NCBI GenBank assembly: GCA_947587025.1
Contig: CANPXW010000018.1
Coordinates: forward strand, 1 to 34,153
Direction of reading: 5' to 3'
Source of the DNA: an uncultured Oscillospiraceae bacterium
Lineage (GTDB): Bacteria > Bacillota > Clostridia > Oscillospirales > Oscillospiraceae
Length of the DNA: 34,153 bases
This document shows positions 1,493-33,769 of the stretch, piece after piece (position 1 is the stretch's first letter; every line of letters begins with the position of its first letter). The position numbers and the translations under genes are program-made. Under the pieces are notes generated by a model. That model was not told the DNA's origin. It saw only the letters and a list, made by a program, of their open reading frames with translations, and did not search any database.

Positions 1493-1915
1493 TTATAAAA
1501 AAGTCTTTTCCTTGAGGCACTTGTCATAGACCCTGCGGATGTTGGCAATCGTTGCCACCGCGATGCTGTTCCTGAATTTCGGATGCTCGTCGCAGTACGT
1601 TTCATAGAACGTGATGTCAAGCAAGGTCTGGTCGAAGTGTTCTTTCGTGTGTTCCTTTCCCTGCAGGATTTCGTCACCGAAGCGCATGATTCTGGCCCGG
1701 CAGGTCGTGGCCTCCCGTTCCTCGCTTTCTACCCTGAGCAGGTTCAGGTCGTTGGAGAGATTGTCCACCTTTTCGATGATTTCCCCATTGATGGCCCGCC
1801 CGAGCTTCCGCGCCAGCCAGCTCCACGGGTTTATCTGGATTTTTGAAATCTGGACAAACGTCATAATCAGTACCAGAAGTCCGCCGCCCCCGGCGAACAC
1901 TTCCCATAGGTTCAT
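1493..1915 (-). CDS. Membrane-anchored protein of the lysis region, unknown function
   Basis: 140 residues. An N-terminal hydrophobic segment (about residues 6-24, GGGGLLVLIMTFVQI) is followed by a helical, charged soluble part with a possible coiled coil at about 45-75. The start ATG at 1915 lies just past the reverse transcriptase stop, with a G-rich ribosome-binding site overlapping the end of that gene. It sits between the DGR and the candidate holin, so it may be a holin-like or lysis-regulating protein. I do not recognise the family. The Asn/Glu/Asp-rich C-terminal half has no visible catalytic motif. Confidence 0.6.
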   Translation of the reverse strand: MNLWEVFAGGGGLLVLIMTFVQISKIQINPWSWLARKLGRAINGEIIEKVDNLSNDLNLLRVESEEREATTCRARIMRFGDEILQGKEHTKEHFDQTLLDITFYETYCDEHPKFRNSIAVATIANIRRVYDKCLKEKTFL

Positions 1916-1916
1916 T

Positions 1917-3119
1917 TCATGTCCCACCCCTTTCCGATGATGTTTTTGCCTCAAATTCCGCGCAGTTGGTGGCAGGTGTCTGAGGCTCCGGCGGCTTTTC
2001 TGTGGCCGCCTTGCTATACCGGGCAAATATGGCGTTGAGCTTCCGGCGGAGGCCCCTGCTGTTGCAGTGGCTTAAAATGCCCCGGTAGGAAGCGGCTGCC
2101 CGGTCGAACTGAACCCTTGTCATCAGGCCGTCACGGAGGCGCTTGCTCATGTTCTTGACATGACGGGTGATTTTCCGGGCCGTCTGGCGTTTCATCTTGC
2201 GATGGGTCGCCCAGATTTTGAACCCGCAGAACTCTACGCCGAGCCTGCACGGACGGATTGCTGTCTTGCGGTTAAGGTCAAGATGCAGGATGTCCCGCAG
2301 GAACGCCTCGATTTCATCCTTGACCCGGCGCAGCTCCGCCTTGTCGTCGGATAATATCACGATGTCGTCCATGTACCTGATGTAGTAATGCAGGCCGAGT
2401 TCGTGCTTGCAGTACTGGTCGAGTTCGTTCAGGTAGATATTTGCAAAAAGTTGAGACGTGAGGTTGCCAATCGGCATCCCGACATCGGAGCGCCACATAT
2501 CCGCCGTGCAGTCCTCCGGGCTGTACCCGGCAGGCAGGCCGAAGCGCACGTCCTCGCTGTTGATGATTTTTTCCAGCAGGCGCATGAGCTTTTCGTCCTT
2601 TATCCGTCGGCGGAGGATGTCTATCAATACGCGGTGGTCTATCCGGTAGAAATACTTCGATATATCCAGCTTGAGGTAGTACCATTTCTTCGGTTTCCTA
2701 TCCACCTGCCGGAGCCAGTATTGCAGCCGGTCAACCGCCTTATGTACGCCCTTTCCGATGCGGCAGGCGTAGCTGTCCTCGATGAACAGCTTGTCATAGA
2801 ACGGGTTAAGCTGGCGGTAGATGTCCCACTGCACCACGCGGTCGCGGTATTGCAGGGCCATGACAAGCCGCAGCTTTGGTTCATGGACATAGAACGGTCT
2901 GTATCTGCCGACCTCGTAGGTTTCCCAGATAAGTTCGTTCTGCAGCTCAATGAGGTTTTCTTCCAGCCGGTCGGTGAACAGGAGAACATCGTCCCGGTAG
3001 CGCTTGCCCTTGCGGGCCTTTAGGTGTGACTGATAAAGTTCCTCGTAGTCGCACATTTTTTCGTAAACGCCGGAGAGTGTTTTCATGCCGCACTCCCCGG
3101 CAAGCCTTTCGTTTTCCAT
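1917..3119 (-). CDS. DGR reverse transcriptase
   Basis: Error-prone reverse transcriptase of a diversity-generating retroelement. It copies the template repeat RNA with adenine-directed errors and feeds cDNA to the variable repeat. In a 400-residue numbering the catalytic YMDD is at 249-252 and the first palm Asp is in LDIS at about 152. The DGR signature replacing the usual QG motif is IGNLTSQ at 217-223. The basic C-terminal thumb (about 330-370) is followed by a Pro/Ala-rich tail. The ATG at 3119 follows GGGAGG by 8 nt. A second ATG at 3086 (behind GGGGAG, 6 nt) matches the usual N-terminus of the family better, giving 389 residues. The gene lies directly downstream of the template repeat, and the order target, avd, TR, RT is the same as in Bordetella phage BPP-1. 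Confidence 0.95.
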   Translation of the reverse strand: MENERLAGECGMKTLSGVYEKMCDYEELYQSHLKARKGKRYRDDVLLFTDRLEENLIELQNELIWETYEVGRYRPFYVHEPKLRLVMALQYRDRVVQWDIYRQLNPFYDKLFIEDSYACRIGKGVHKAVDRLQYWLRQVDRKPKKWYYLKLDISKYFYRIDHRVLIDILRRRIKDEKLMRLLEKIINSEDVRFGLPAGYSPEDCTADMWRSDVGMPIGNLTSQLFANIYLNELDQYCKHELGLHYYIRYMDDIVILSDDKAELRRVKDEIEAFLRDILHLDLNRKTAIRPCRLGVEFCGFKIWATHRKMKRQTARKITRHVKNMSKRLRDGLMTRVQFDRAAASYRGILSHCNSRGLRRKLNAIFARYSKAATEKPPEPQTPATNCAEFEAKTSSERGGT

Positions 3120-3285
3120 TGGCATCGCCTCCCGCCTCAAACGCCGTGTGTGACGTTCCCGCCTCCACGGCAATAGAATCTTTTCCTTTTGGCACTTCCG
3201 CCGCAGGAGGGAAACAGACCCCTTTAAGGCTGCGCTCCGTGCCATGCCCCTTGAGGCGATGGCCTGTCATCTGTCGCAGCCGCAG

Positions 3286-3404
3286 AGCGGAGCGGAACCC
3301 CACGTTGTGGTTGGAATTGGACCGCGCATTGTTGAAGTTGGAATTGAACACCCCAGCGTTCGCGCCGTTGTTCCAGTTGCCACCGCGATTCAGGAACCGC
3401 TTTG
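3286..3404 (-). repeat. DGR template repeat (TR)
   Basis: 119 bp in the 181-nt spacer between avd and the reverse transcriptase. It aligns without gaps to the variable repeat at 3905-4023, offset 619, with 103 identical positions. On the coding strand it holds 28 adenines, many in AAC/AAT codons, and read in the target frame it is strongly Asn-rich (for example FLNRGGNWNNGANAG). Asn codons are typical of TRs because changes at their two adenines reach many amino acids and no stops. Fourteen of the 28 adenines differ in the variable repeat. The 3' end on the coding strand (3305-3286, ending GTTCCGCTCCGCT) is identical in both repeats and marks the IMH-like end. The RNA template probably spans this repeat and extends toward the reverse transcriptase gene. 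Confidence 0.95.
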
Positions 3405-3426
3405 GCCTGCTCCCCATAGGGAAAAG

Positions 3427-3813
3427 TTATTTTACAAACTTCATGTAGCCGCCGATGATTCGGCCAATTTCATTCAGGAGCTTGCTCCAATACTCATATT
3501 TTTTGAACGGCAGAGGTGGGGCGACGTTGGGGCCGTAGTAGTCTTTATCCATCGCCACCCGGATGAAGTGGCGCAGGACATCCAGCTCGATGTCAAGCTC
3601 CTGCAGCGTGGTCTTTTTGTAGTATTTCTTCTCTATCTGGATTGCCAGACGGAGCATGGCGTACATAGACCGCTGGATATTGTCGGCGAGCTTCCTGTCC
3701 CGGCGCGGGAAATTTGACGTTGCCGGGTTGCCGTACTTTATCATGTCGGAGATTTTCTCCTTGAGGATGAAAGAAGTCGTTTCTTTCGAGTAGTTGACCT
3801 TTTGCTCCTCCAT
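3427..3813 (-). CDS. avd: DGR accessory variability determinant (Avd)
   Basis: 128 residues, basic and almost wholly helical, with features of the Avd/bAvd four-helix-bundle family: many Lys/Arg on helix faces and a C-terminal YWSKLLNEIGRIIGGY segment. Avd forms a pentamer that binds the reverse transcriptase and template RNA and is needed for mutagenic retrohoming. Its size and place between the variable gene and the TR are standard for the family. The ATG at 3813 follows AGGAGG by 8 nt. The gene ends 22 nt before the TR homology begins. Confidence 0.9.
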   Translation of the reverse strand: MEEQKVNYSKETTSFILKEKISDMIKYGNPATSNFPRRDRKLADNIQRSMYAMLRLAIQIEKKYYKKTTLQELDIELDVLRHFIRVAMDKDYYGPNVAPPLPFKKYEYWSKLLNEIGRIIGGYMKFVK

Positions 3814-3843
3814 CGCCTGAGCCTCCTATCCGTGCAAAATTAA

Positions 3844-3865
3844 GGGGCGGGCTACCGCCCACCCC
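3844..3865 (-). other. GC-rich hairpin downstream of the variable repeat
   Basis: On the coding strand GGGGTGGGC and GCCCGCCCC form a 9-bp stem (one T-G wobble) closed by a GGTA loop. It starts 39 nt past the end of the variable repeat and 21 nt past the target gene stop. A GC-rich stem with a 4-nt GRNA loop just after the VR is a known DGR target-recognition element in BPP-1 and relatives, and GGTA fits GRNA. The run TTAATTTT follows, so it could also, or instead, act as a weak intrinsic terminator. Confidence 0.7.
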
Positions 3866-3886
3866 ATCAGTTATTCAGTCATCAGT

Positions 3887-4954
3887 TTACAGTTTGCCAT
3901 AAAAAGCGGAGCGGAACCCCACGTCGTGGCTGGAATCGGACCGCGCCCTGTCGAAGTGGGAATCGAACGCCCCAGCGCCCGCGCCGTCGCCCCAGTAGCC
4001 ACCGCGATTCAGGAACCGCTCTGCCTCGGCGTTGTTCGCCCAGAAGTAGTCGCCGCTGTATTCCCCGGAATCCTCCGGCATGAGGGTCATCAACTGCAAG
4101 ATGGCCTTTGCGTTGGCCCCCACGCCCTCGTCTGCGGTGATGTCATTAAACAGACAGCCGCGCCCGGTGTTGCTGGAATCCGAGATTTCCCCGGTAATCC
4201 ACTTCCACTTGCTGGTAACGTAGTCCAGCTTGAGGGTGTTCGCGGAACCCGGCGCGACGAAGTTGCCGTCCTTATCCAGCGCCCTCCACTCTGCGGAGCT
4301 TGCGCCCATGTCGCAGGTTGCGAGGATGCTGTTCGCGTTGATGATGAACTGGACTTCGCCTTTTACGAGGCGGATGCCCGCGCACCACTCCCAGACGTTT
4401 CCGTTCATGTCGGCGATGCCGGAGTAGTCGCCATTGTGATACCACGTCGCCGGGCCGGAGCCGGTCGCCGTCCTGCCGTTCTTCGTGCCGCTGTCCTCAT
4501 AGGTGTAGGTCACGACACCCTTTTCCCATGTGGATGCGATGTCATGGCCGAACTGGTTATTGCCGTGCGGCTGGAAGCCGTTTTTCTTGCACCACAGGGC
4601 GATTGCAGACCAGAGGGCCGCAGGCTGAACTCCCCAGCCCTCGCCCTTTTTGCGGCAAGCCTCAAGTGCTTGGTCGAACGTGATGTTCGCACGGGGGTCC
4701 TGCATCGGCAGGGAGTAGGCCCGGCTGTTCTGGACGATGTTCTGATATTTGCTCATGTAGGCGACGCTCTGCGTGTTGCCGTCCACGATAAAGCCGGGAT
4801 GTGCATCCGCGGCCCCTGCCGTGATAAGCTCGGAGCGGGCAAGCATAGGGACAGCCACCATGATAGAGGGCATCCCGATGTCGTCAAAAATGACCGTGTT
4901 CGTACCGCCGGACAGCATTTCCACCGCCAGCTTCAAATCGTCAAAATTATTCAT
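3887..4954 (-). CDS. DGR target: variable protein with C-type-lectin/FGE-sulfatase fold
   Basis: 355 residues. DMNGNVWEWC (about 182-191) is the hallmark of the formylglycine-generating-enzyme/SUMF1-like version of the C-type lectin fold, the usual scaffold for DGR-diversified proteins. The C-terminal stretch RFLNRGG...VGFRSA (residues 312-350) is encoded by the variable repeat. Compared with the TR frame, residues 312, 320, 322, 323, 326, 329, 331, 333, 335, 336, 340, 342 and 344 differ, mostly Asn replaced by Asp, Gly, Ser, His, Tyr or Arg. The N-terminal 60 residues probably attach it to the particle. The gene follows small tail-tip or fibre genes, so a receptor-binding role at the tail tip is likely. 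The ATG at 4954 follows GGAGG by about 9 nt. Confidence 0.93.
   Translation of the reverse strand: MNNFDDLKLAVEMLSGGTNTVIFDDIGMPSIMVAVPMLARSELITAGAADAHPGFIVDGNTQSVAYMSKYQNIVQNSRAYSLPMQDPRANITFDQALEACRKKGEGWGVQPAALWSAIALWCKKNGFQPHGNNQFGHDIASTWEKGVVTYTYEDSGTKNGRTATGSGPATWYHNGDYSGIADMNGNVWEWCAGIRLVKGEVQFIINANSILATCDMGASSAEWRALDKDGNFVAPGSANTLKLDYVTSKWKWITGEISDSSNTGRGCLFNDITADEGVGANAKAILQLMTLMPEDSGEYSGDYFWANNAEAERFLNRGGYWGDGAGAGAFDSHFDRARSDSSHDVGFRSAFYGKL
3905..4023 (-). repeat. DGR variable repeat (VR)
   Basis: This is the 3' end of the target gene, aligned base for base with the TR at 3286-3404. Sixteen substitutions are seen. Fourteen replace a TR adenine (coding strand) with G, C or T, mostly G. 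Two replace a TR thymine: 3947 (T to G) and 3969 (T to C). The last 20 bp on the coding strand (3924-3905) are unchanged and form the likely initiation-of-mutagenic-homing region, followed by the hairpin at 3844-3865. Confidence 0.95.
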
Positions 4955-4975
4955 GATATTTTCCTCCTCTGATGA

Positions 4976-5320
4976 TTAGATGCTCCACAAATAAAGGGTG
5001 CAGTTGTCGATGTTGAACGGGACGGGTACAAACACCGTGATGGTGTTCGGCTCGCCCTCCTGACCCTTGTTCGGGTTCTCCTGCTCCTCCTCGGTGTACT
5101 GGCGCGGCGGAATCTCGACCTGCGCGGCGTAGCGAAGCCCGGCGGCGGTTCCCATCGTGAGATTGCCGTCCCGGTCAAAGCAGATGTCAATGACGACCTT
5201 GTCGTCCGCCTCGCGGTTCTTGAGGTTGATGCTCAAGTCCTCGTCCTCACCGAAGATGATGCTCTTTGCCGTGGTTTCATACTCGATGTAATTGCCCGGC
5301 GTTACGTTGATGACTTTCAT
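4976..5320 (-). CDS. Hypothetical protein upstream of the DGR target
   Basis: 114 residues, acidic, probably beta-rich (VTPGNYIEYETTAKSIIF; VVIDICFDRDGNLTMG). No family recognised. The middle (about 75-95) is a Glu/Asn/Gly-rich linker. It overlaps the 59-residue gene before it by ATGA and stands 21 nt before the DGR target gene, so the two are probably cotranslated. A role as adaptor or chaperone for the diversified tip protein is possible but rests only on position. Confidence 0.75.
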   Translation of the reverse strand: MKVINVTPGNYIEYETTAKSIIFGEDEDLSINLKNREADDKVVIDICFDRDGNLTMGTAAGLRYAAQVEIPPRQYTEEEQENPNKGQEGEPNTITVFVPVPFNIDNCTLYLWSI

Positions 5321-6332: not shown

Positions 6333-7391
6333 TTAAGTGTGGGCTACGGTCGTGCCGCAGAATTTGTAATCAGCGCCGTAGCTGGTGGCCTTGACCTCAG
6401 CCTGAGCGGTGATACCTGAATGTAGATTGCCGTGCGCGGCGGCCTCCGGGAATAACCCGGAAACCCCTTTATCGCCGCTGGCAGCGTGTTTGTGGCCGTA
6501 GATGGTACTTTCTTCGGTGGCCCCGATAACGGCCCCAAAATCAAGCCTCTGGCCCTGTGTTGCGATGCCCGGCGTTGTGCCTGCCAGCTCCCCGGCTTCA
6601 TCCGCCTGCCGGTAGTCCGTGAGCTGGGTGCTGCGGCCAGCCTCGACCGCAACGTCCACACGGCTGAGGCTCCCGTGCATGGCGATGTCAGGGTACACGC
6701 CGGAGATTTCCCGGTCTTTGTCTGCCTGCCGGTAGCCGGTGACTTTGTTCCGGCGGTCGGCCTCGACGACTACTTCCACATGATTGAGGTCGCCATGCAG
6801 AGTGATGTCCGGCTTCGTCCCGGTAAGGTCATAGCTGAAACGGTAGTGCTTCCGGCTGGCCCCGACGACGACGGCCCGCTTATAGACCACCGCCGCAATC
6901 CAGTTGATATGCGCCGGGATTTTCTTGCTCAACAGCAGGCTGATGTCGGACATATAGAGGGTGTCCACGTCGCCGCGCTGGATGTAGATGTAAAGCGTGT
7001 TGTTCCGTTCCTCGTCGGACGGTTCAAAAACCATGTCCACGTCCGCCCCGGTGTAGCTCTTTATCATTTCCTTGAGCATGGAGGCGGAAACCTTTCCGAA
7101 CCCGACGAAGAATGATTTCACCAGCCTGCGGCGTTCCTCCAATGAGCGCTCTTTGTCGAGGCCGATTTGCAGGAACAGTTCAAGCCGGGACAGCGTTTCC
7201 TCGTCCATGTCGTCGATGAAACTGTTCTGATAGACCCTTTCGATGTCGTCCTGCATCATGTCGGCCAGATGGCCGTGCGCGTGGAGGATGGCGACCATTT
7301 CAAGGACTTCCCGGTAAAAGCGCGGGTAGTAGGTTATCAATTCCTCGTAGCAGTCCGGCCAGTAGTAGTCATAGAATTTGATTTTGCTCAT
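6333..7391 (-). CDS. XkdU-like (DUF2313-type) tail protein with C-terminal repeats
   Basis: 352 residues. Residues 1-170 fit the DUF2313/YmfQ-XkdU family that follows baseplate protein J in contractile tails (PRFYREVLEMVAILHAHG; LQIGLDKERSLEERRRLVKSFF; IPAHINWIAAV). The part after residue 173 is not in short family members. It consists of about four units of 40 residues, marked by a recurring P-x(4)-HG motif and G-Y-R-Q-A-D segments. It overlaps the XkdT gene by ATGA. The head part probably caps the baseplate wedge, while the repeats may extend outward as a fibre-like arm. Confidence 0.8.
   Translation of the reverse strand: MSKIKFYDYYWPDCYEELITYYPRFYREVLEMVAILHAHGHLADMMQDDIERVYQNSFIDDMDEETLSRLELFLQIGLDKERSLEERRRLVKSFFVGFGKVSASMLKEMIKSYTGADVDMVFEPSDEERNNTLYIYIQRGDVDTLYMSDISLLLSKKIPAHINWIAAVVYKRAVVVGASRKHYRFSYDLTGTKPDITLHGDLNHVEVVVEADRRNKVTGYRQADKDREISGVYPDIAMHGSLSRVDVAVEAGRSTQLTDYRQADEAGELAGTTPGIATQGQRLDFGAVIGATEESTIYGHKHAASGDKGVSGLFPEAAAHGNLHSGITAQAEVKATSYGADYKFCGTTVAHT
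6372..6875 (-). repeat. Four to five 40-residue protein repeats (XkdU-like gene)
   Basis: Encodes residues about 173-340. The HG (or QG) pair recurs at residues 199-200, 239-240, 279-280 and 320-321, a spacing of 40, 40 and 41. GYRQAD and DYRQAD recur at 219 and 259. The nucleotide repeats are diverged, so this is an old duplication rather than a recent expansion. Confidence 0.7.
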
Positions 7392-28401: not shown

Positions 28402-28977
28402 TTACGTTTCCCCTTTCGCCTTGCGCACAATAGCCATGACGATACCGTCCTCGCCGTTTTTCTTGATATAGGATTTCACGTCCTTTTCGTCCGCCTTGTC
28501 GAATGTGAGGGTCAGCAAGAAAAAGTCCTGCGGCGGCTCCTCCCCGGCGGGTTCCTCGTCCTCCTCGTCGTCGAAAAAGGTTTGAAGCTCGTTTTGCAGG
28601 ACTTCTATTTCCGGGAGCGTGAATCCCGTTTGCACCGCATCGTCGCCCAGTTCCAGCAGGATTTCAGACAGCTTCCTGTCGTCCCATTTGCCCTCCACCT
28701 TATTCAGCGCGATGTTGAGCTGCTTTTCCGCGATGCTGTCCAAGTCAACGACCGATACGTCCGCTTCCTGAATACCCATGTCGGAAAGCACCCGCAAGCG
28801 CTGATGCCCTCCGACGACCGTATTCGTTCTCCTGTTCCAGACTATGGGCTGAACCAGCCCGTATTTTTCAATACTCCTTTTGATGGTTTCATATTCCTCG
28901 TCACCGGGTTGGAGCGTGACCCGTGGGTTATATTCGGCGAGGTTCATTTCAGAGATTTTCTTCTTGATGATTTCCAT
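28402..28977 (-). CDS. ParB/Sulfiredoxin-domain protein, copy 2
   Basis: 191 residues. The N-terminal 90 residues are a ParB N-terminal domain: NLAEYNPR, RSIEKYGLVQPIVWNRRTN, and the nucleotide-binding TVVGGHQRLRVL. An acidic linker (about 136-150, EEDEEPAGEEPP) leads to a small beta-alpha C-terminal domain. It is a paralogue of the gene 5 nt upstream, with the same domain order but a diverged C-terminus. It lacks the typical ParB DNA-binding helix-turn-helix region. ParB-type domains bind or cleave nucleotides; the exact role in this phage is unknown, but the place next to terminase suggests a packaging or DNA-modification link. Confidence 0.85.
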   Translation of the reverse strand: MEIIKKKISEMNLAEYNPRVTLQPGDEEYETIKRSIEKYGLVQPIVWNRRTNTVVGGHQRLRVLSDMGIQEADVSVVDLDSIAEKQLNIALNKVEGKWDDRKLSEILLELGDDAVQTGFTLPEIEVLQNELQTFFDDEEDEEPAGEEPPQDFFLLTLTFDKADEKDVKSYIKKNGEDGIVMAIVRKAKGET

Positions 28978-28982
28978 GCCGC

Positions 28983-29591
28983 CTATTCCCCCATCCTGAC
29001 GAAGTTCACGACCGCCGCCGCCAGCTCTGCCTCCGGCTCCTCCGCCGTGTCCATGAACAGCTTTACGTCGTCCGCATATTCAACGGGTATCTGGAAAGCC
29101 ATTTCAAAGGTTTCCGGCTCCTGAGGCTCGTCCTCGGCTTCGCCGTCCCCGGCCTGCTGGTCGTCGTACCTGAGAACATCTTCCAGCCGGGAATAGTCCT
29201 CAAGTAAACCTTGTAGTTCCCATTCGTCGAACCCTGTCAGCTCGACTTCCCCCGCGTCGCTTAATTCCTGCATGAGAGCGGCCAGCTTTTCATTGTCCCA
29301 CCGGCCTTTCGTGCGGTTCAGCATGACGTTGAGGATTTTTTCTTCCCTGAGCGTGCAGTCAATGACGACCACTTCCGCCTCGGTCTGCCCCATGTTGAGC
29401 AGGACTTTCAGACGTTGGTGGCCGCCTACGACGTGCTGGGTCTGCCGGTTCCAGATGATAGGCTCCACGCATCCAAATTCCTGAATACTGCGGCGTATCT
29501 TCTGAAATTCCGGGTCGTCCGGCTGCAGGTCTTTTCGTGGGTTATACTCTGCCCCCTTGAGGGCTGAGAGTTCCATTCGTTGCAGATTCAT
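28983..29591 (-). CDS. ParB/Sulfiredoxin-domain protein, copy 1
   Basis: 202 residues. ParB domain with GAEYNPRKDL, RSIQEFGCVEPIIWNRQTQ, and HVVGGHQRLKVL. Then a helical part (KLAALMQELSDAG), an acidic linker (DGEAEDEPQEPE), and a short C-terminal domain (FEMAFQIPVEYADDVKLF). Same layout as copy 2. The ATG at 29591 lies inside the yhhQ-like gene, an overlap of 50 nt; a later in-frame ATG at 29576 would leave 35 nt. AAAGGGG 7 nt upstream supports 29591. Confidence 0.85.
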   Translation of the reverse strand: MNLQRMELSALKGAEYNPRKDLQPDDPEFQKIRRSIQEFGCVEPIIWNRQTQHVVGGHQRLKVLLNMGQTEAEVVVIDCTLREEKILNVMLNRTKGRWDNEKLAALMQELSDAGEVELTGFDEWELQGLLEDYSRLEDVLRYDDQQAGDGEAEDEPQEPETFEMAFQIPVEYADDVKLFMDTAEEPEAELAAAVVNFVRMGE

Positions 29592-30252
29592 CGTCCTGCC
29601 CCTTTCTCCTGCGGGTCATGATGTAGAAAAACGGAGTGTCCAGCGCGGCAAGGATGAATTTCAGAACGTACTGCCCCACCATCATCGCCAGCAGCGGCGC
29701 GTGCATGGCCGGGTCGAAGAACCATCCGAATCCAAGTCCGAACGATATTCCGATGAACAGCACCGTGTCGATGATTTGGCTCGTCATGGTAGAGCCGTTA
29801 TTCCAGAGCCACCGCTTGCGCGGGTCCGCCTCAAACCTGTCCCTGATTTTATGGAAAATCCAAACGTCCCAGCTCTGCGACGCGAAGTACGCCACCAATG
29901 AGCCGATGACGAATATCCAGTTCTGTCCGAGTAGGGTGTTATACGCCTCCTGCACCGTTCCATCTGCGGCGGGCAGATATTGTGTCGCCAGTATGAGCAG
30001 CGATGCAAGCGCCTGAGCGATAAAGCCCCAGCGCACCGTCCGGTTGGCTTCCTTTTTGCCCCATAGCTCCCCGATGACATCCGTCATCAAAAAGGTGATG
30101 GCGTAGCAGAGGGCCGCGCCCGGCAGCGTGATGGGGACGCCGAAAAGCGTCAGCCCGGTTGCGAACAGCTTCGCGGTTACGACATTCGAGATAACGAGAG
30201 CTACCGCGAATATCATGTTCAGACCAATCAAGTTCGAGTTGGTTTTTTTCAT
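29542..30252 (-). CDS. yhhQ: YhhQ-like 7-deazaguanine precursor transporter (VUT family)
   Basis: 236 residues with about six membrane helices (for example LIGLNMIFAVALVISNVVTA; PGAALCYAITFLMTDVIGEL; FVIGSLVAYFASQSWDVWIF; DTVLFIGISFGLGFGWFF). ITFLMTDVIGELWGKKEANR is the core motif of the YhhQ/VUT family (queuosine precursor import, preQ0/preQ1). Directly downstream of queC. In a phage, this would bring preQ0 from outside into the host cell. The short hydrophilic tail overlaps the ParB gene. Family firm; cargo inferred from neighbours. Confidence 0.92.
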   Translation of the reverse strand: MKKTNSNLIGLNMIFAVALVISNVVTAKLFATGLTLFGVPITLPGAALCYAITFLMTDVIGELWGKKEANRTVRWGFIAQALASLLILATQYLPAADGTVQEAYNTLLGQNWIFVIGSLVAYFASQSWDVWIFHKIRDRFEADPRKRWLWNNGSTMTSQIIDTVLFIGISFGLGFGWFFDPAMHAPLLAMMVGQYVLKFILAALDTPFFYIMTRRRKGQDDESATNGTLSPQGGRV

Positions 30253-30279
30253 TGTGGTTTCCTCACTTTCTGATTTTTG

Positions 30280-30972
30280 TTATTTTTTGAGTGCGGGGTC
30301 TTCGACCCCATTCGCAGCGAACGCCGCCGCCCTGTCGATGCAGGTTCCGCAGGTGCCGCATGGCCTGTCGCCGCCCTCATAGCACGACCATGTGAGTTCG
30401 TAGGGGACTTTCAGCCCCAGCCCGATTTTCACGACCCCTGCTTTATTGAGGTCTACCAGAGGGGCGACGACGTGAACCCTGCCATACGTCCCGATGCTGA
30501 TAGCCTTTTTCATCGCCTCCGTAAACTCCCGGCTGCAGTCCGCGTAAGCGTTGCCTGCCGCGTCGTCGGCGTGCGCTCCCAAGTAGATTTCCGTGTCCTC
30601 GTCCGGGTAGATGGACATTGCCAGTGCTGCCACGGCGGACAGGAGCAGCCCGTTCCTGAACGGGACATAGGTTCTGACCATGCCCTCGCCGTCCTGAGCT
30701 ATCTGCTCCGCATAGCTCTGGTGCCGGATGCCCTCGGTGCTGTGGGATAACAGCGGGCAGTTGGAGAATTTCATAATCTCGGACAGGTCAAGGACGAAGT
30801 GCGGCACCGCGTAGTAGTCCGCGATTTTGGCCGCGCACTCCAATTCCTTTTCATGCTTCTGCCCGTAGAATACGGAGACGGTAGAGATATTTCCCGCCCC
30901 CAGCTTGTCCACCGCGATGCCGATGCAGGTCGTGCTGTCCACGCCCCCGCTGCTGAGTACCAATGCTTTCAT
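30280..30972 (-). CDS. queC: QueC, 7-cyano-7-deazaguanine synthase
   Basis: 230 residues. PP-loop LSSGGVDSTT at 7-16, the substrate region GAHADDAAGNAYADCSREF, and the C-terminal zinc site built from SCYEGGDRPCGTCGTC followed by IDRAAAF are all canonical. It makes preQ0 from 7-carboxy-7-deazaguanine, using ATP and ammonia. Full length for the family. The ATG at 30972 follows AAAGGAGG by 7 nt. It is between the DpdA-like and YhhQ-like genes, so its product probably serves DNA modification rather than tRNA queuosine. Confidence 0.96.
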   Translation of the reverse strand: MKALVLSSGGVDSTTCIGIAVDKLGAGNISTVSVFYGQKHEKELECAAKIADYYAVPHFVLDLSEIMKFSNCPLLSHSTEGIRHQSYAEQIAQDGEGMVRTYVPFRNGLLLSAVAALAMSIYPDEDTEIYLGAHADDAAGNAYADCSREFTEAMKKAISIGTYGRVHVVAPLVDLNKAGVVKIGLGLKVPYELTWSCYEGGDRPCGTCGTCIDRAAAFAANGVEDPALKK

Positions 30973-30986
30973 GATGTGTCCTCCTT

Positions 30987-31886
30987 TTAATTCTGCGGCC
31001 CGGCTGTGAGCGAATACTGATTCCTGCAGATAGTCGCGCACAGGCTGGCGTTCGTTGTGTAGTCGAGATTCCTGCTCCCGGATGTGACCCCGCGCTTTGC
31101 AAGCTCCGCGATGATGGCCTCCCGGCGGGCCTCGAAAAGCTCCCTCTTAAAATTGCGGATGTGCCGCTTCTGGAAGCCGTCGTCGATGGTGCCGTACTTG
31201 ACCCCGGCCAGCCATGATGTGCTGTCGGAGGATGTGCAAAAGCTGTTTTCCTTGAGGATTCGCGCATCGGTGCAGCCAAGCAGGTGGATGTCGATTTCCG
31301 GCTTTTTGTTCTTGATGTAGTGGGTGATGTAGCGCACGTCGTCCTTGTGGCTGGCTTTCTTCGTGCGCCGCCACTCCGGCAGGCCGACCGCGAGGTAGTC
31401 CGAAAATTCAATCAGCCGGTCGAGGCCCTTGCGCCCGTCCTCAAAGTGCCAGACGTTCATGTGCCGGTGGTGAGGCAGGAGCTTTTTCATCCGCTCCCGG
31501 AAATACCATGCTTCATCCACGCCAAGGACTTTCTGGCAGTCGATTTCGACGAGGGTCGCGTCTATGTCGTTCTGCTGGACAAAGGCCACCATCTTATCCT
31601 GCCATTGCCTGAGGATTTCCAGCGTCATCGGCTGGCCTTTCCCCACGCCAAACATAAAGGTAAAGATGCCGCTGTCCTGAATGACGTGCTTCTGCTCCCG
31701 GCATTGCGCCCGGATGACGTGTTCATAGGGCAGGGTGAAGTCGCTGTCCGGCTTCTTGTTGACGATGTACTTATAGCAGGAATAAAGGCGGTAGCCCACG
31801 TCCGCCGCATTAAGGGCCGCATAAAAGTTTTCCTGACCGTCGCTCCCGGCGAAGTGTACCTTGCAGTTGTTCCCGAACAGGCCCAT
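30987..31886 (-). CDS. dpdA: DpdA-like DNA-guanine transglycosylase
   Basis: 299 residues, related to tRNA-guanine transglycosylase (TGT) but of the shorter phage DpdA type, which exchanges guanine for a 7-deazaguanine in DNA. QDSGIFTF (70-77) matches the TGT DSGG substrate region; LVEIDCQKVLG (112-122), YLAVGLPEW (164-172), IHLLGCTD (200-207) and SSDSTSWLAG (219-228, Asp221 as likely nucleophile) follow in TGT order. The usual TGT zinc cluster is not obvious. The ATG at 31886 is chosen because AAAGGAGG is 7 nt upstream. It precedes queC by 14 nt. The DNA-modifying role is inferred from homology and context. Confidence 0.85.
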   Translation of the reverse strand: MGLFGNNCKVHFAGSDGQENFYAALNAADVGYRLYSCYKYIVNKKPDSDFTLPYEHVIRAQCREQKHVIQDSGIFTFMFGVGKGQPMTLEILRQWQDKMVAFVQQNDIDATLVEIDCQKVLGVDEAWYFRERMKKLLPHHRHMNVWHFEDGRKGLDRLIEFSDYLAVGLPEWRRTKKASHKDDVRYITHYIKNKKPEIDIHLLGCTDARILKENSFCTSSDSTSWLAGVKYGTIDDGFQKRHIRNFKRELFEARREAIIAELAKRGVTSGSRNLDYTTNASLCATICRNQYSLTAGPQN

Positions 31887-31912
31887 GCGCCCGCCTCCTT
31901 TCATGGCAATAG

Positions 31913-31930
31913 AAAAACCGAACGGTTTTT
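31913..31930 (-). terminator. Possible terminator or operator palindrome before dpdA
   Basis: A perfect 8-bp inverted repeat, AAAAACCG and CGGTTTTT with a 2-nt centre, with A-rich and T-rich arms that could work in either direction. It ends 27 nt before the dpdA start. Only the inner bases are G/C, so as a terminator it is weak; a protein-binding palindrome is equally possible. Confidence 0.4.
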
Positions 31931-31970
31931 CTGGGTTTCTTTCGGTTTCCCTCGGTTCCGTTCGGTTCTT
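31921..31970 (-). repeat. Five tandem 10-bp imperfect repeats upstream of dpdA
   Basis: Read on the plus strand, five consecutive 10-bp units share a CGGTT core (GGGTT in the second): AACGGTTTTT, CTGGGTTTCT, TTCGGTTTCC, CTCGGTTCCG, TTCGGTTCTT. The period is near one helical turn, so a repeated protein site would lie on one face of the DNA. Not part of any supported coding sequence. Confidence 0.7.
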
Positions 31971-31996
31971 CCACTTTACTATTCTACTCATAAAAA

Positions 31997-32023
31997 TGTG
32001 ACATGTGTGACTTTTGTGACAGA
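31997..32023 (-). repeat. Three TGTGAC iterons with 9-bp period
   Basis: On the plus strand TGTGAC starts at 31997, 32006 and 32015, exactly 9 bp apart (GTCACA on the coding strand). The block ends one base before the stop codon of the DUF1492-like gene. It resembles an operator or terminase/replication-type iteron set; binding partner unknown. Confidence 0.6.
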
Positions 32024-32024
32024 T

Positions 32025-32453
32025 TTACTCATTTTCTTGAGTTTTTTCTGCCTCGTTGGCCGCCCTCAGGTATCTATGGAACGTCTGCCGGGCGTTTTCC
32101 TCGGACATTTTATGCCCCATGCCTGCGGCGACCTCCCGCCATGAGAACCCATCAATGCAGCGGAGTGTGAATACCATGCGGGTCATTGGGTCGTCAATGG
32201 AATAGATAAACCTCTCGATGCGCTGGCGCTGGTGGATGCACTCTATCTGTTTGGCGGCTATGATGGCCTCAAGGTCGGTTATCTCGGCCACCGCCACGGC
32301 CAGCTTATCCGACGGCCCGCCGCCTCCCGGCATCCCGGTCAGGCGTGTGGACTGGGGCGCACTGGCCCTTTCCCTCAGGGCGCGGAGCCGCTTTTCCATG
32401 TCCTCTATTTCCTTTTTCAGCCAATAGTATTGAGAAAGTTCTTTCTTCGTCAT
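32025..32453 (-). CDS. DUF1492-like / ArpU-RinA-type late regulator
   Basis: 142 residues. An N-terminal coiled coil (LKKEIEDMEKRLRALRERAS), a Gly/Pro-rich turn (GMPGGGGPSD), and a C-terminal sigma-region-4-like helix-turn-helix (MVFTLRCIDGFSWREVAAGM, then SEENARQTFHRYLR). Such proteins sit just before terminase genes in Firmicutes phages and activate late transcription. The ATG at 32453 follows GGAGG by 10 nt. It is the most likely regulator of this whole late block. Confidence 0.82.
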   Translation of the reverse strand: MTKKELSQYYWLKKEIEDMEKRLRALRERASAPQSTRLTGMPGGGGPSDKLAVAVAEITDLEAIIAAKQIECIHQRQRIERFIYSIDDPMTRMVFTLRCIDGFSWREVAAGMGHKMSEENARQTFHRYLRAANEAEKTQENE

Positions 32454-32568
32454 CAGATATTTGCCTCCATGCCCTTGACAGCCCCCGCGATGGTGTGCTA
32501 TCATAATTCTACCGTTTTTGTGTTGTGGCAATCGGCGGGCCTTATGGTCTGTCGGTTGCCATTTCCTT
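32454..32568 (-). promoter_or_regulatory. Leader of the late regulator with a weak promoter candidate
   Basis: A 115-nt spacer. On the coding strand TTGCCA (about 32531-32526) and, 17 nt on, AATTAT form a weak sigma-70-type match; TATGAT lies a few bases farther. No other signal is clear apart from the GGAGG ribosome-binding site near 32466. Confidence 0.25.
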
Positions 32569-32799
32569 TTATCCGCCTGCCCGGCCCGGCTGGGTTTCGA
32601 TGGCCTGCTCCGTCTTTTCTTCCCCTGCCAGCTTTCGGATGACCGAGAACATTTCCTTGTATGCCTCGGCCTTGCCGGTGGCGAAAGCCTCCCGCTGCTG
32701 CTGTGCCACAAAGCCTGTCAGGATGTCGAGCCGGTTGCTTTCCGCCATCTTCATCCGCATGATGCTCTGTATCTGCTTCCTTATTTCCACGCCCGTCAT
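32569..32799 (-). CDS. Small helical hypothetical protein
   Basis: 76 residues, strongly helical and Lys/Glu/Gln-rich (EIRKQIQSIMRMKMAESNRL; AFATGKAEAYKEMFSVIRKL). Overlaps the preceding gene by ATGA, so cotranslated. No known domain. It could be a small DNA- or protein-binding regulator; nothing decides this. Confidence 0.65.
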   Translation of the reverse strand: MTGVEIRKQIQSIMRMKMAESNRLDILTGFVAQQQREAFATGKAEAYKEMFSVIRKLAGEEKTEQAIETQPGRAGG

Positions 32800-33050
32800 T
32801 GCTCGCCCTCCTTTGGAGTGAGAACCTTTTCCAGAACCCGCCTTTTCAGGTGGATGTCGCTTTCAAAGGGTTTCCTCTTTACCCCGAACTGCTCCGCCTT
32901 TCTGGTGAGCTTCCTGCCCCTTGTGACCTTGCATGGAAGTTTGTACGCCCGGCGCCACTTCCAGATACGCAGGAGCTTCGGCCCGATGATGACGAGAGCT
33001 GTCGCCGCCGCGATGATGATTGCAATCAGAACCATTTCAAGACCTTTCAT
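32796..33050 (-). CDS. Small membrane protein with basic tail
   Basis: 84 residues. An N-terminal membrane helix (about 5-24, MVLIAIIIAAATALVIIG) is followed by a highly basic cytoplasmic part (RIWKWRRAYKLPCKVTRGRK). The ATG at 33050 is chosen: AAAGGAGG lies 9 nt upstream and it overlaps the previous stop (ATGA). The ATG at 33059 has the site too close. Function unknown. Confidence 0.65.
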   Translation of the reverse strand: MKGLEMVLIAIIIAAATALVIIGPKLLRIWKWRRAYKLPCKVTRGRKLTRKAEQFGVKRKPFESDIHLKRRVLEKVLTPKEGEQ

Positions 33051-33769
33051 TTTGAGCATCCTCCTTTTCCCATTTCAGCCCTGAGGCTGTCTTTTATGTA
33101 GTAATCCAGACCCATTTCCCGGCATAAGACTTCGGCCCTCCTGCCGAAGTCCGCCCAGTCAATATCCGACGGGTGATAGTTCAGCTTCCCGATTTTCACC
33201 TTATCGAACGCCGTCCCATATTTTTGCAATAGCTTCAAAACCCCGGTATCAATGACCGGCTCAAAAGATACCCACGTTCTTATTCCTCTTGCCTTTGCGT
33301 GGAGCAGGCCAGTCAAGCGGATTGCTGGGTCTGCAGCATATGGTTCGGCGATTCCGGCAAGGTGATTGTCCTGCGTAGAAATTGTCACTCCGTACCAATC
33401 TCCGCCATCCAGCAGGTCGAAGTCCCGGTGGCCATCCCCTTTCGTCAAAATCTGGACGTGGTTTCCTGAGGCTTTCAACAGCTTGATGATTTCGCGGGTC
33501 GGCGTGGTGTCGTAGCCGGTCGGATATGGGTCACAGGTAAAACAAAGATGTATCAGCTTCCCGGTGATGTGTTCCCGATCAAGCTGCTTTGCGACCTCCT
33601 GAACGATGTCCTTTCGAGGCTCCACGCAGGTGTGAAACTGTTCCCGGTCGCGCCTGAGTACAGTCGGGGCGAAACAGTAATAGCAGCGATGCGGGCAGCC
33701 GGTGTAAATGTTGATGGCCGCCTCCCCGTATTCTTTCGCCGCCCCTCTCGGTTCATAAATTGGTTTCAT
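33047..33769 (-). CDS. Radical SAM protein, spore-photoproduct-lyase-like
   Basis: 240 residues. The iron-sulfur motif CPHRCYYC (C-x3-C-x2-C, at about 25-32) after INIYTGC defines a radical SAM enzyme. FTCDPYPTGYD, VQILTKGD, YGVTISTQDN, and VSFEPVID are the usual barrel motifs of the SPL/PA0069-like group. These enzymes use S-adenosylmethionine to start radical chemistry; some repair DNA lesions. The substrate here is unknown; DNA or a nucleotide is possible. Overlaps its upstream neighbour by 17 nt and its downstream by ATGA, so it is cotranslated with the zinc-ribbon genes. Confidence 0.88.
   Translation of the reverse strand: MKPIYEPRGAAKEYGEAAINIYTGCPHRCYYCFAPTVLRRDREQFHTCVEPRKDIVQEVAKQLDREHITGKLIHLCFTCDPYPTGYDTTPTREIIKLLKASGNHVQILTKGDGHRDFDLLDGGDWYGVTISTQDNHLAGIAEPYAADPAIRLTGLLHAKARGIRTWVSFEPVIDTGVLKLLQKYGTAFDKVKIGKLNYHPSDIDWADFGRRAEVLCREMGLDYYIKDSLRAEMGKGGCSK

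Follow-up and report, generated by a model that had tools for sequence, protein, structure and literature searches.

We analysed an entire contig of 34,153 bases (CANPXW010000018.1, hereafter the window) from a 2.3-Mb draft genome in 154 contigs that is 80% complete, contig and genome both being incomplete, and found that it very probably carries a complete BPP-1-type diversity-generating retroelement (DGR) of a contractile-tailed phage, which would rewrite the C-terminal part of a TaqVP-like target protein. On the minus strand, reading toward the lysis genes, the target gene is followed by the gene for the accessory variability determinant (Avd), a template repeat (TR) and a reverse transcriptase (RT) gene, and the 3' end of the target gene holds the variable repeat (VR). 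Each of these parts was identified by sequence or profile matches (Table 1), which bears out the completeness assigned to the element in an earlier reading of the letters alone (the original prediction). The window also encodes an endolysin-like protein, and its tail sheath, tape measure, baseplate, terminase, portal and head genes mark it as a fragment of a phage or prophage with a contractile tail.

TR and VR align over 119 nucleotides (nt) without gaps at 87% identity, and 14 of their 16 mismatches fall at TR adenines, which occupy 28 of the 119 positions (hypergeometric P 6.2e-9); the other two lie at T (T to C and T to G). The target's 3' end had been described as an ungapped, adenine-directed copy of the template: the ungapped match stands, and the adenine rule holds for all but these two changes. 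Translated in the target frame, TR is Asn-rich, as had been noted. Comparing this reading with VR gave 13 changed residues (312, 320, 322, 323, 326, 329, 331, 333, 335, 336, 340, 342 and 344), so the variable range given earlier, 320-344, was nearly right, with 12 of the 13 inside it and residue 312 outside.

Relatives of the target, rather than the window phage, provided direct comparative evidence that DGR cassettes of this family rewrite their targets. We scanned 72 target-family loci (58 viral contigs and 14 of 19 genome loci, the five left out, L104-L108, being weak partial matches) and found TR as a direct repeat in 51, none in 20 and a spurious inverted match in one. At least 80% of mismatches lay at TR adenines in 49 of the 51 loci, and among 39 loci without near-duplicates the bases changed were 516 of 954 A, 9 of 1323 C, 1 of 1192 G and 6 of 875 T. 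Close pairs of loci were then aligned (n = 12 pairs, some sharing members). In nine pairs the TRs were identical while the VRs differed at 11-19 adenine sites and at 0-4 sites of other bases. Outside VR, the target was identical over 950 nt in L007/L010, L094/L097 and L028/L030, where 12 of 24, 14 of 25 and 13 of 22 VR adenine sites differed, and differed at 1-41 of 950 positions in the remaining six. Weighing against active rewriting are the two window mismatches at T, the 20 loci in which TR went undetected (several at contig ends) and three close pairs that showed no VR difference (near-identical or the same element). Together, the adenine-directed mismatches and the near-identical pairs support the original interpretation of a DGR driving targeted variation. 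As separate observations, T to G prevailed among the non-adenine changes at T (7 of 10 across the 51 loci, three of them in the L030 VR at 6987-7104), and 4 of 12 mismatches in the L016 VR (6936-7047) had A in VR rather than TR, unlike other loci, which could reflect decay or reversed transfer.

Both motifs predicted for the RT, IGNLTSQ and YMDD, are present and satisfy the DGR-clade patterns (I/V/L)GxxxSQ and YxDD. Their key columns are invariant in the 11 RTs compared. The RT also matched PDB 8ub7 (E 4.6e-47), labelled only 'Reverse transcriptase', which we take to be the BPP-1 RT. Its open reading frame (ORF) extends upstream to ATG 3245, judged from the sequence probably too early a start; 3119 or 3125 is likelier, and by eye a GGAGG lies about 8 nt ahead of ATG 3119. 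The Avd-like gene recognised earlier matched Avd profiles in both Pfam and PHROGs. The TR-to-RT spacer is expected, by analogy with BPP-1, to be part of the DGR RNA; the predicted fold of 3120-3300 has -80 kcal/mol (z -2.45), and an Rfam scan of 1900-5000 gave no match at E 0.1. A 43-nt direct repeat (77%) links 1480-1522, downstream of the RT gene, with 3155-3197 inside the spacer. In a mixed RT set, GCCAGAAG/GTCAGAAG-like words occurred within about 20 nt 3' of the TR end in many of the 28 rows listed, and are perhaps part of the spacer RNA.

The target is a full-length homologue of TaqVP, the variable protein of a Thermus aquaticus prophage DGR (PDB 5VF4) that likewise has a C-terminal VR and an FGE-type C-type-lectin (CLec) fold, with 34% identity in a structural alignment (VIA-align 2). 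Consistent with the fold first suggested, an FGE-type CLec fold is predicted for the target, with VR in its variable C-terminal end; the Pfam FGE-sulfatase match fell under the curated cut-off (21.2 vs 23.3 bits). From position and modelled fold, we propose that this variable part probably serves the tail in receptor binding or adhesion. The target had been placed beside fibre genes of a contractile tail; the contractile-tail genes are there, and its neighbours match tail/baseplate or unknown families, none named fibre.

On the minus strand, the GC-rich VR end is followed by four CTG triplets, spaced 7, 7 and 8 nt start to start, and then by a hairpin with a GGTA loop. No other chain of four or more CTGs with 7/8 spacing occurs on the two strands of the window, and the first triplet of this one is the target's final codon. 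The hairpin (z -2.46 when predicted as single-stranded DNA) is a GRNA-loop hairpin placed after VR as in phage DGRs, with one T.G in its stem. There is about an even chance, in our judgement, that such CTG/YTG arrays, which repeat every 7.5 nt or so, amount to a widespread and so far undescribed target-site element of Avd-type DGRs. This element would replace or contain the 'directionality' part of the initiation of mutagenic homing (IMH) site and would be read in single-stranded form, possibly by the Avd ring with one unit per subunit. No description of the array was found in the literature text searched, figures not covered; printed sequences might show it unremarked. Excerpts of PMC3240598 describe a GRNA-loop hairpin at a distance of 4-34 bp, and assign BPP-1 directionality to a 21-bp stretch with five mismatches; the text of that source does not contain 'CTG', and its excerpts state no rule. 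In the 21-bp element, TGs lie 8 and 7 apart in VR, and the TR version lacks the middle TG.

The window DGR is like several published ones, the closest being those of Faecalibacterium phage FP_Lagaffe (Lagaffevirus), Dulem virus 37 and Bacillus phage BalMu-1. FP_Lagaffe is alike in baseplate-to-endolysin gene order, Avd, TR, target (43.6% identity) and RT (48.9%), but carries two VRs about 10 kb apart. A search for a second VR in the window and the 80%-complete genome returned only TR and VR at E 0.01, both sequences being incomplete, with no TR-like DNA elsewhere in the draft genome at that threshold; a distant second target may lie outside the sequence at hand. According to excerpts of PMC11792537, the FP_Lagaffe VRs show variation and lost adenine conservation between cognate genomes, and limited Lagaffe reads gave no signal. 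Dulem virus 37 and BalMu-1, different phages whose RTs were the top matches of the window RT in the phage collection (59.6% and 53.1%), share its gene order, CTG array and GRNA hairpin (by eye), although Dulem virus 37 has an additional target, which carries an array and a hairpin of its own. Bordetella phage BPP-1 (mtd-avd-TR-brt) has the order, Avd family, adenine rule and GRNA hairpin in common.

We then examined the flanks of 40 family loci (39 loci and the window, 12 near-duplicates left out). CTG chains at 6-9 spacing followed VR with at least three units in 28 of 40 loci and at least four in 20 of 40, compared with 0.75% and 0.07% of background windows from the same loci; among all 64 trinucleotides none came near CTG, the next being ACT (7/40). 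TG-to-TG distances peaked at 7, 8, 15, 22 and 30 (z 9.4, 9.7, 10.0, 8.5 and 4.5 against 300 shuffles), which gives a period near 7.5. CTG pairs at 7 or 8 numbered 86 after VR vs 0 after TR, and perfect-stem GRNA hairpins followed VR in 18/40 loci (the window, with its T.G, not counted) and TR in 0/40. If the array is a target-site element, its presence at VR and not at TR would mean that only VR is rewritten. YTG units were compared in a fixed region with sites more than 70% identical removed; a stricter repeat filter reduced the 40 loci to 37 sites, and redundancy removal to 28. Chains of at least three YTGs followed VR in 22/28 sites and TR in 0/28 (dinucleotide shuffles: mean 0.8, maximum 2). 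Among loci found by an 11-RT alignment (window included), they followed VR in 41/52 and TR in 1/52 (shuffles: mean 1.5, maximum 6). Alignments served as probes of viral contigs because a single-sequence RT probe had found no match, and the best 80 matches were kept in each search. The target-family, array-pattern and one RT-alignment locus set overlap in some contigs.

Searching 299 genomes of the phylum for bAvd, we fetched 22 loci, 11 with TR/VR (window included), of which 10 had chains of at least three units, nine of at least four and eight of five; the flanks of L490 and L504 are identical and those of L503 nearly so. A search of viral contigs for the array pattern itself (80 of 120 loci) gave 56 distinct sites, 20 with a GRNA hairpin behind, as against 0/258 control segments, and 23 with TR in the locus; when all 120 loci were counted, the hairpin stood at 30 of 77 distinct sites. 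Chain length centred on 4-5 units, and L136 has, by eye, two array sites resembling VRs. In loci reached through the RTs of nd4, nd12, FP_Brigit and BPP-1, YTG chains followed VR in 6/29 and TR in 0, and chains of TCT followed VR in 19/29 and TR in 0 (shuffles: mean 0.2, maximum 2), with no GRNA hairpin in any of the 29. BPP-1-type loci had no YTG chain; TG chains followed VR in 20/23 and TR in 2/23 (shuffles: mean 2.4, maximum 6), which is weak evidence since these units are also conserved coding sequence. The flanks of nd4, nd12 and FP_Brigit are array-like (nd4 with CTG). A repeat search in cr55_1 and cr52_1 found no repeat, and a crAss RT probe matched 24 stretches with no relative among them.

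Several observations weigh against a general target-site element read by Avd. Twelve of the 40 family loci lack a chain of three CTGs, several having degenerate units; the units TCT (tentaclin-type set) and TG (BPP-1-type set) were picked after the sequences had been seen; the array was not found at the DGRs of ANMV-1, vir525, crAssphage LMMB and Bacteroides phage p00; YPCBV-1 has mere traces of it; and Pseudomonas phage Bise has bAvd and a hairpin with no array. The ORFs tried as Avd of nd4, nd12 and FP_Brigit had no Pfam match, although one in FP_Brigit is annotated Avd. Among array-less phages, p00 and ANMV-1 gave no bAvd match in the one ORF each that was searched and LMMB has no Avd according to the abstract of its own paper, but Bise lacks the array and has bAvd, and nd4 has the array and no bAvd match.

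By analogy with BPP-1, RNA of TR and spacer would be copied by an RT-Avd complex with errors opposite adenines, and the mutated cDNA would replace VR, so that as many as 15 codons toward the C-terminus of the target could be rewritten. The GC-rich VR end, CTG array and GRNA hairpin may mark VR, not TR, as recipient; the RT-Avd complex, as a candidate reader, might be brought to VR by array and hairpin when these are exposed as a single strand. The Avd ring is a pentamer, and the non-helical period and usual 4-5 units suggest single-strand reading, possibly by that ring. We rejected the idea that the array pairs with CAG units in the DGR RNA: across 39-40 loci, the region between -200 and +300 relative to the TR end held no CAG chain of three (7/8 spacing). 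A host factor such as primase, instead of the DGR's Avd or RT, could also read the array as single-stranded DNA, an unlikely alternative to which the CTG core lends some weight, as E. coli primase starts at CTG. We know of no requirement of primase for a 7.5-nt period, and one RT set has TCT instead of CTG. According to excerpts of PMC12875486, homing in reconstituted BPP-1 depends on replication direction, which favours a host factor and also agrees with a single-stranded target, but altering the activity of DnaG left BPP-1 homing unaffected in E. coli (S9 legend).

Second targets far from the cassette bear on whether the array instead serves the neighbouring gene. They were found in FP_Lagaffe (L115, 31798-33060), Dulem virus 37 (L116, 34247-35392) and genome G067 (L118), the latter two about 8 kb and about 30 kb from the cassette and each with VR, array and hairpin. 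Relative to the cassette TR, the second VR of Dulem virus 37 has 20 mismatches, 16 at A, and that of G067 has 10, all at A. The second VR of FP_Lagaffe (VR2, 32591-32706) lies inside an ORF and has 18 mismatches, 7 not at A; five CTGs follow it, spaced 8, 8, 9 and 7 and hitting all three reading frames (by hand), and a search of 90 nt found no 4-nt loop closed by a perfect 6-bp stem. In the window, the array sits between the target's end and Avd and begins in the last target codon, as a transcription or translation signal for Avd, or an accident of an untranslated stretch, might. We regard both as improbable: the array also follows the second VRs of Dulem virus 37 (where no annotated Avd comes next) and G067 (three ORFs behind, no bAvd match) as well as the internal VR2 of FP_Lagaffe, and YTG chains at VR exceeded both dinucleotide shuffles and TR flanks. 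That the window holds a fossil DGR, formerly active and now silent with VR fixed as an ordinary gene end, is very improbable: the two mismatches at T could be drift since the last homing and some relatives have a target without detectable TR, but the element still has its RT (motifs intact), Avd, TR, hairpin and array, and close relatives diversify.

Table 1. Features of the DGR and of the neighbouring gene run in the window.
Feature	Position	Strand	Evidence or remark
DGR reverse transcriptase	1917-3119 (likely start 3119 or 3125)	-	phrog_1423 E 5.8e-140; RVT_1 E 1.4e-25
TR-to-RT spacer (Sp)	3120-3285	-	Position as in BPP-1
Template repeat (TR)	3286-3404	-	119-nt ungapped repeat
Avd, 128 aa	3427-3813	-	Pfam bAvd PF22296 E 2.5e-26; phrog_3206 'Avd protein of DGR' E 9.4e-30
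Hairpin/cruciform	3844-3865	-	9-bp GC-rich stem, one T.G, loop GGTA (fits GRNA)
Four CTG triplets, candidate target-site element	3868-3892	-	3892-3890, 3885-3883, 3878-3876, 3870-3868
DGR target (variable) protein, 355 aa, TaqVP-like, predicted FGE-type CLec fold	3887-4954	-	phrog_2889 match
Variable repeat (VR), target residues 311-350	3905-4023	-	Ungapped 119-nt repeat; ends in GC-rich core TTCCGCTCCGCT
Vut_1 transporter	29542-30252	-	
QueC	30280-31041	-	E 3.6e-53
Queuine tRNA-ribosyltransferase-like	30987-31991	-	phrog_887
Radical SAM protein	33047-33769	-	

Elsewhere in the window, a run of 7-deazaguanine-type genes on the minus strand (29542-33769) possibly serves phage DNA or tRNA modification, and an adjacent pair of ParB-like genes on the same strand (28402-28977 and 28983-29591) has several matched families in common. 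The host would be a gut-type bacterium, probably of Clostridia type, judging from where relatives occur.

As a DGR, the window element adds a further well-preserved example to a widespread phage family, whose natural near-identical pairs make adenine-site rewriting directly visible. Of greater importance than the DGR itself is the CTG array, the part worth following. It is a spaced signal after VRs across several RT groups, also where no GRNA hairpin was detected; if its proposed role is true, the choice between donor and recipient becomes a question for the bench, and as a true target mark the array would help to find targets far from their cassette.
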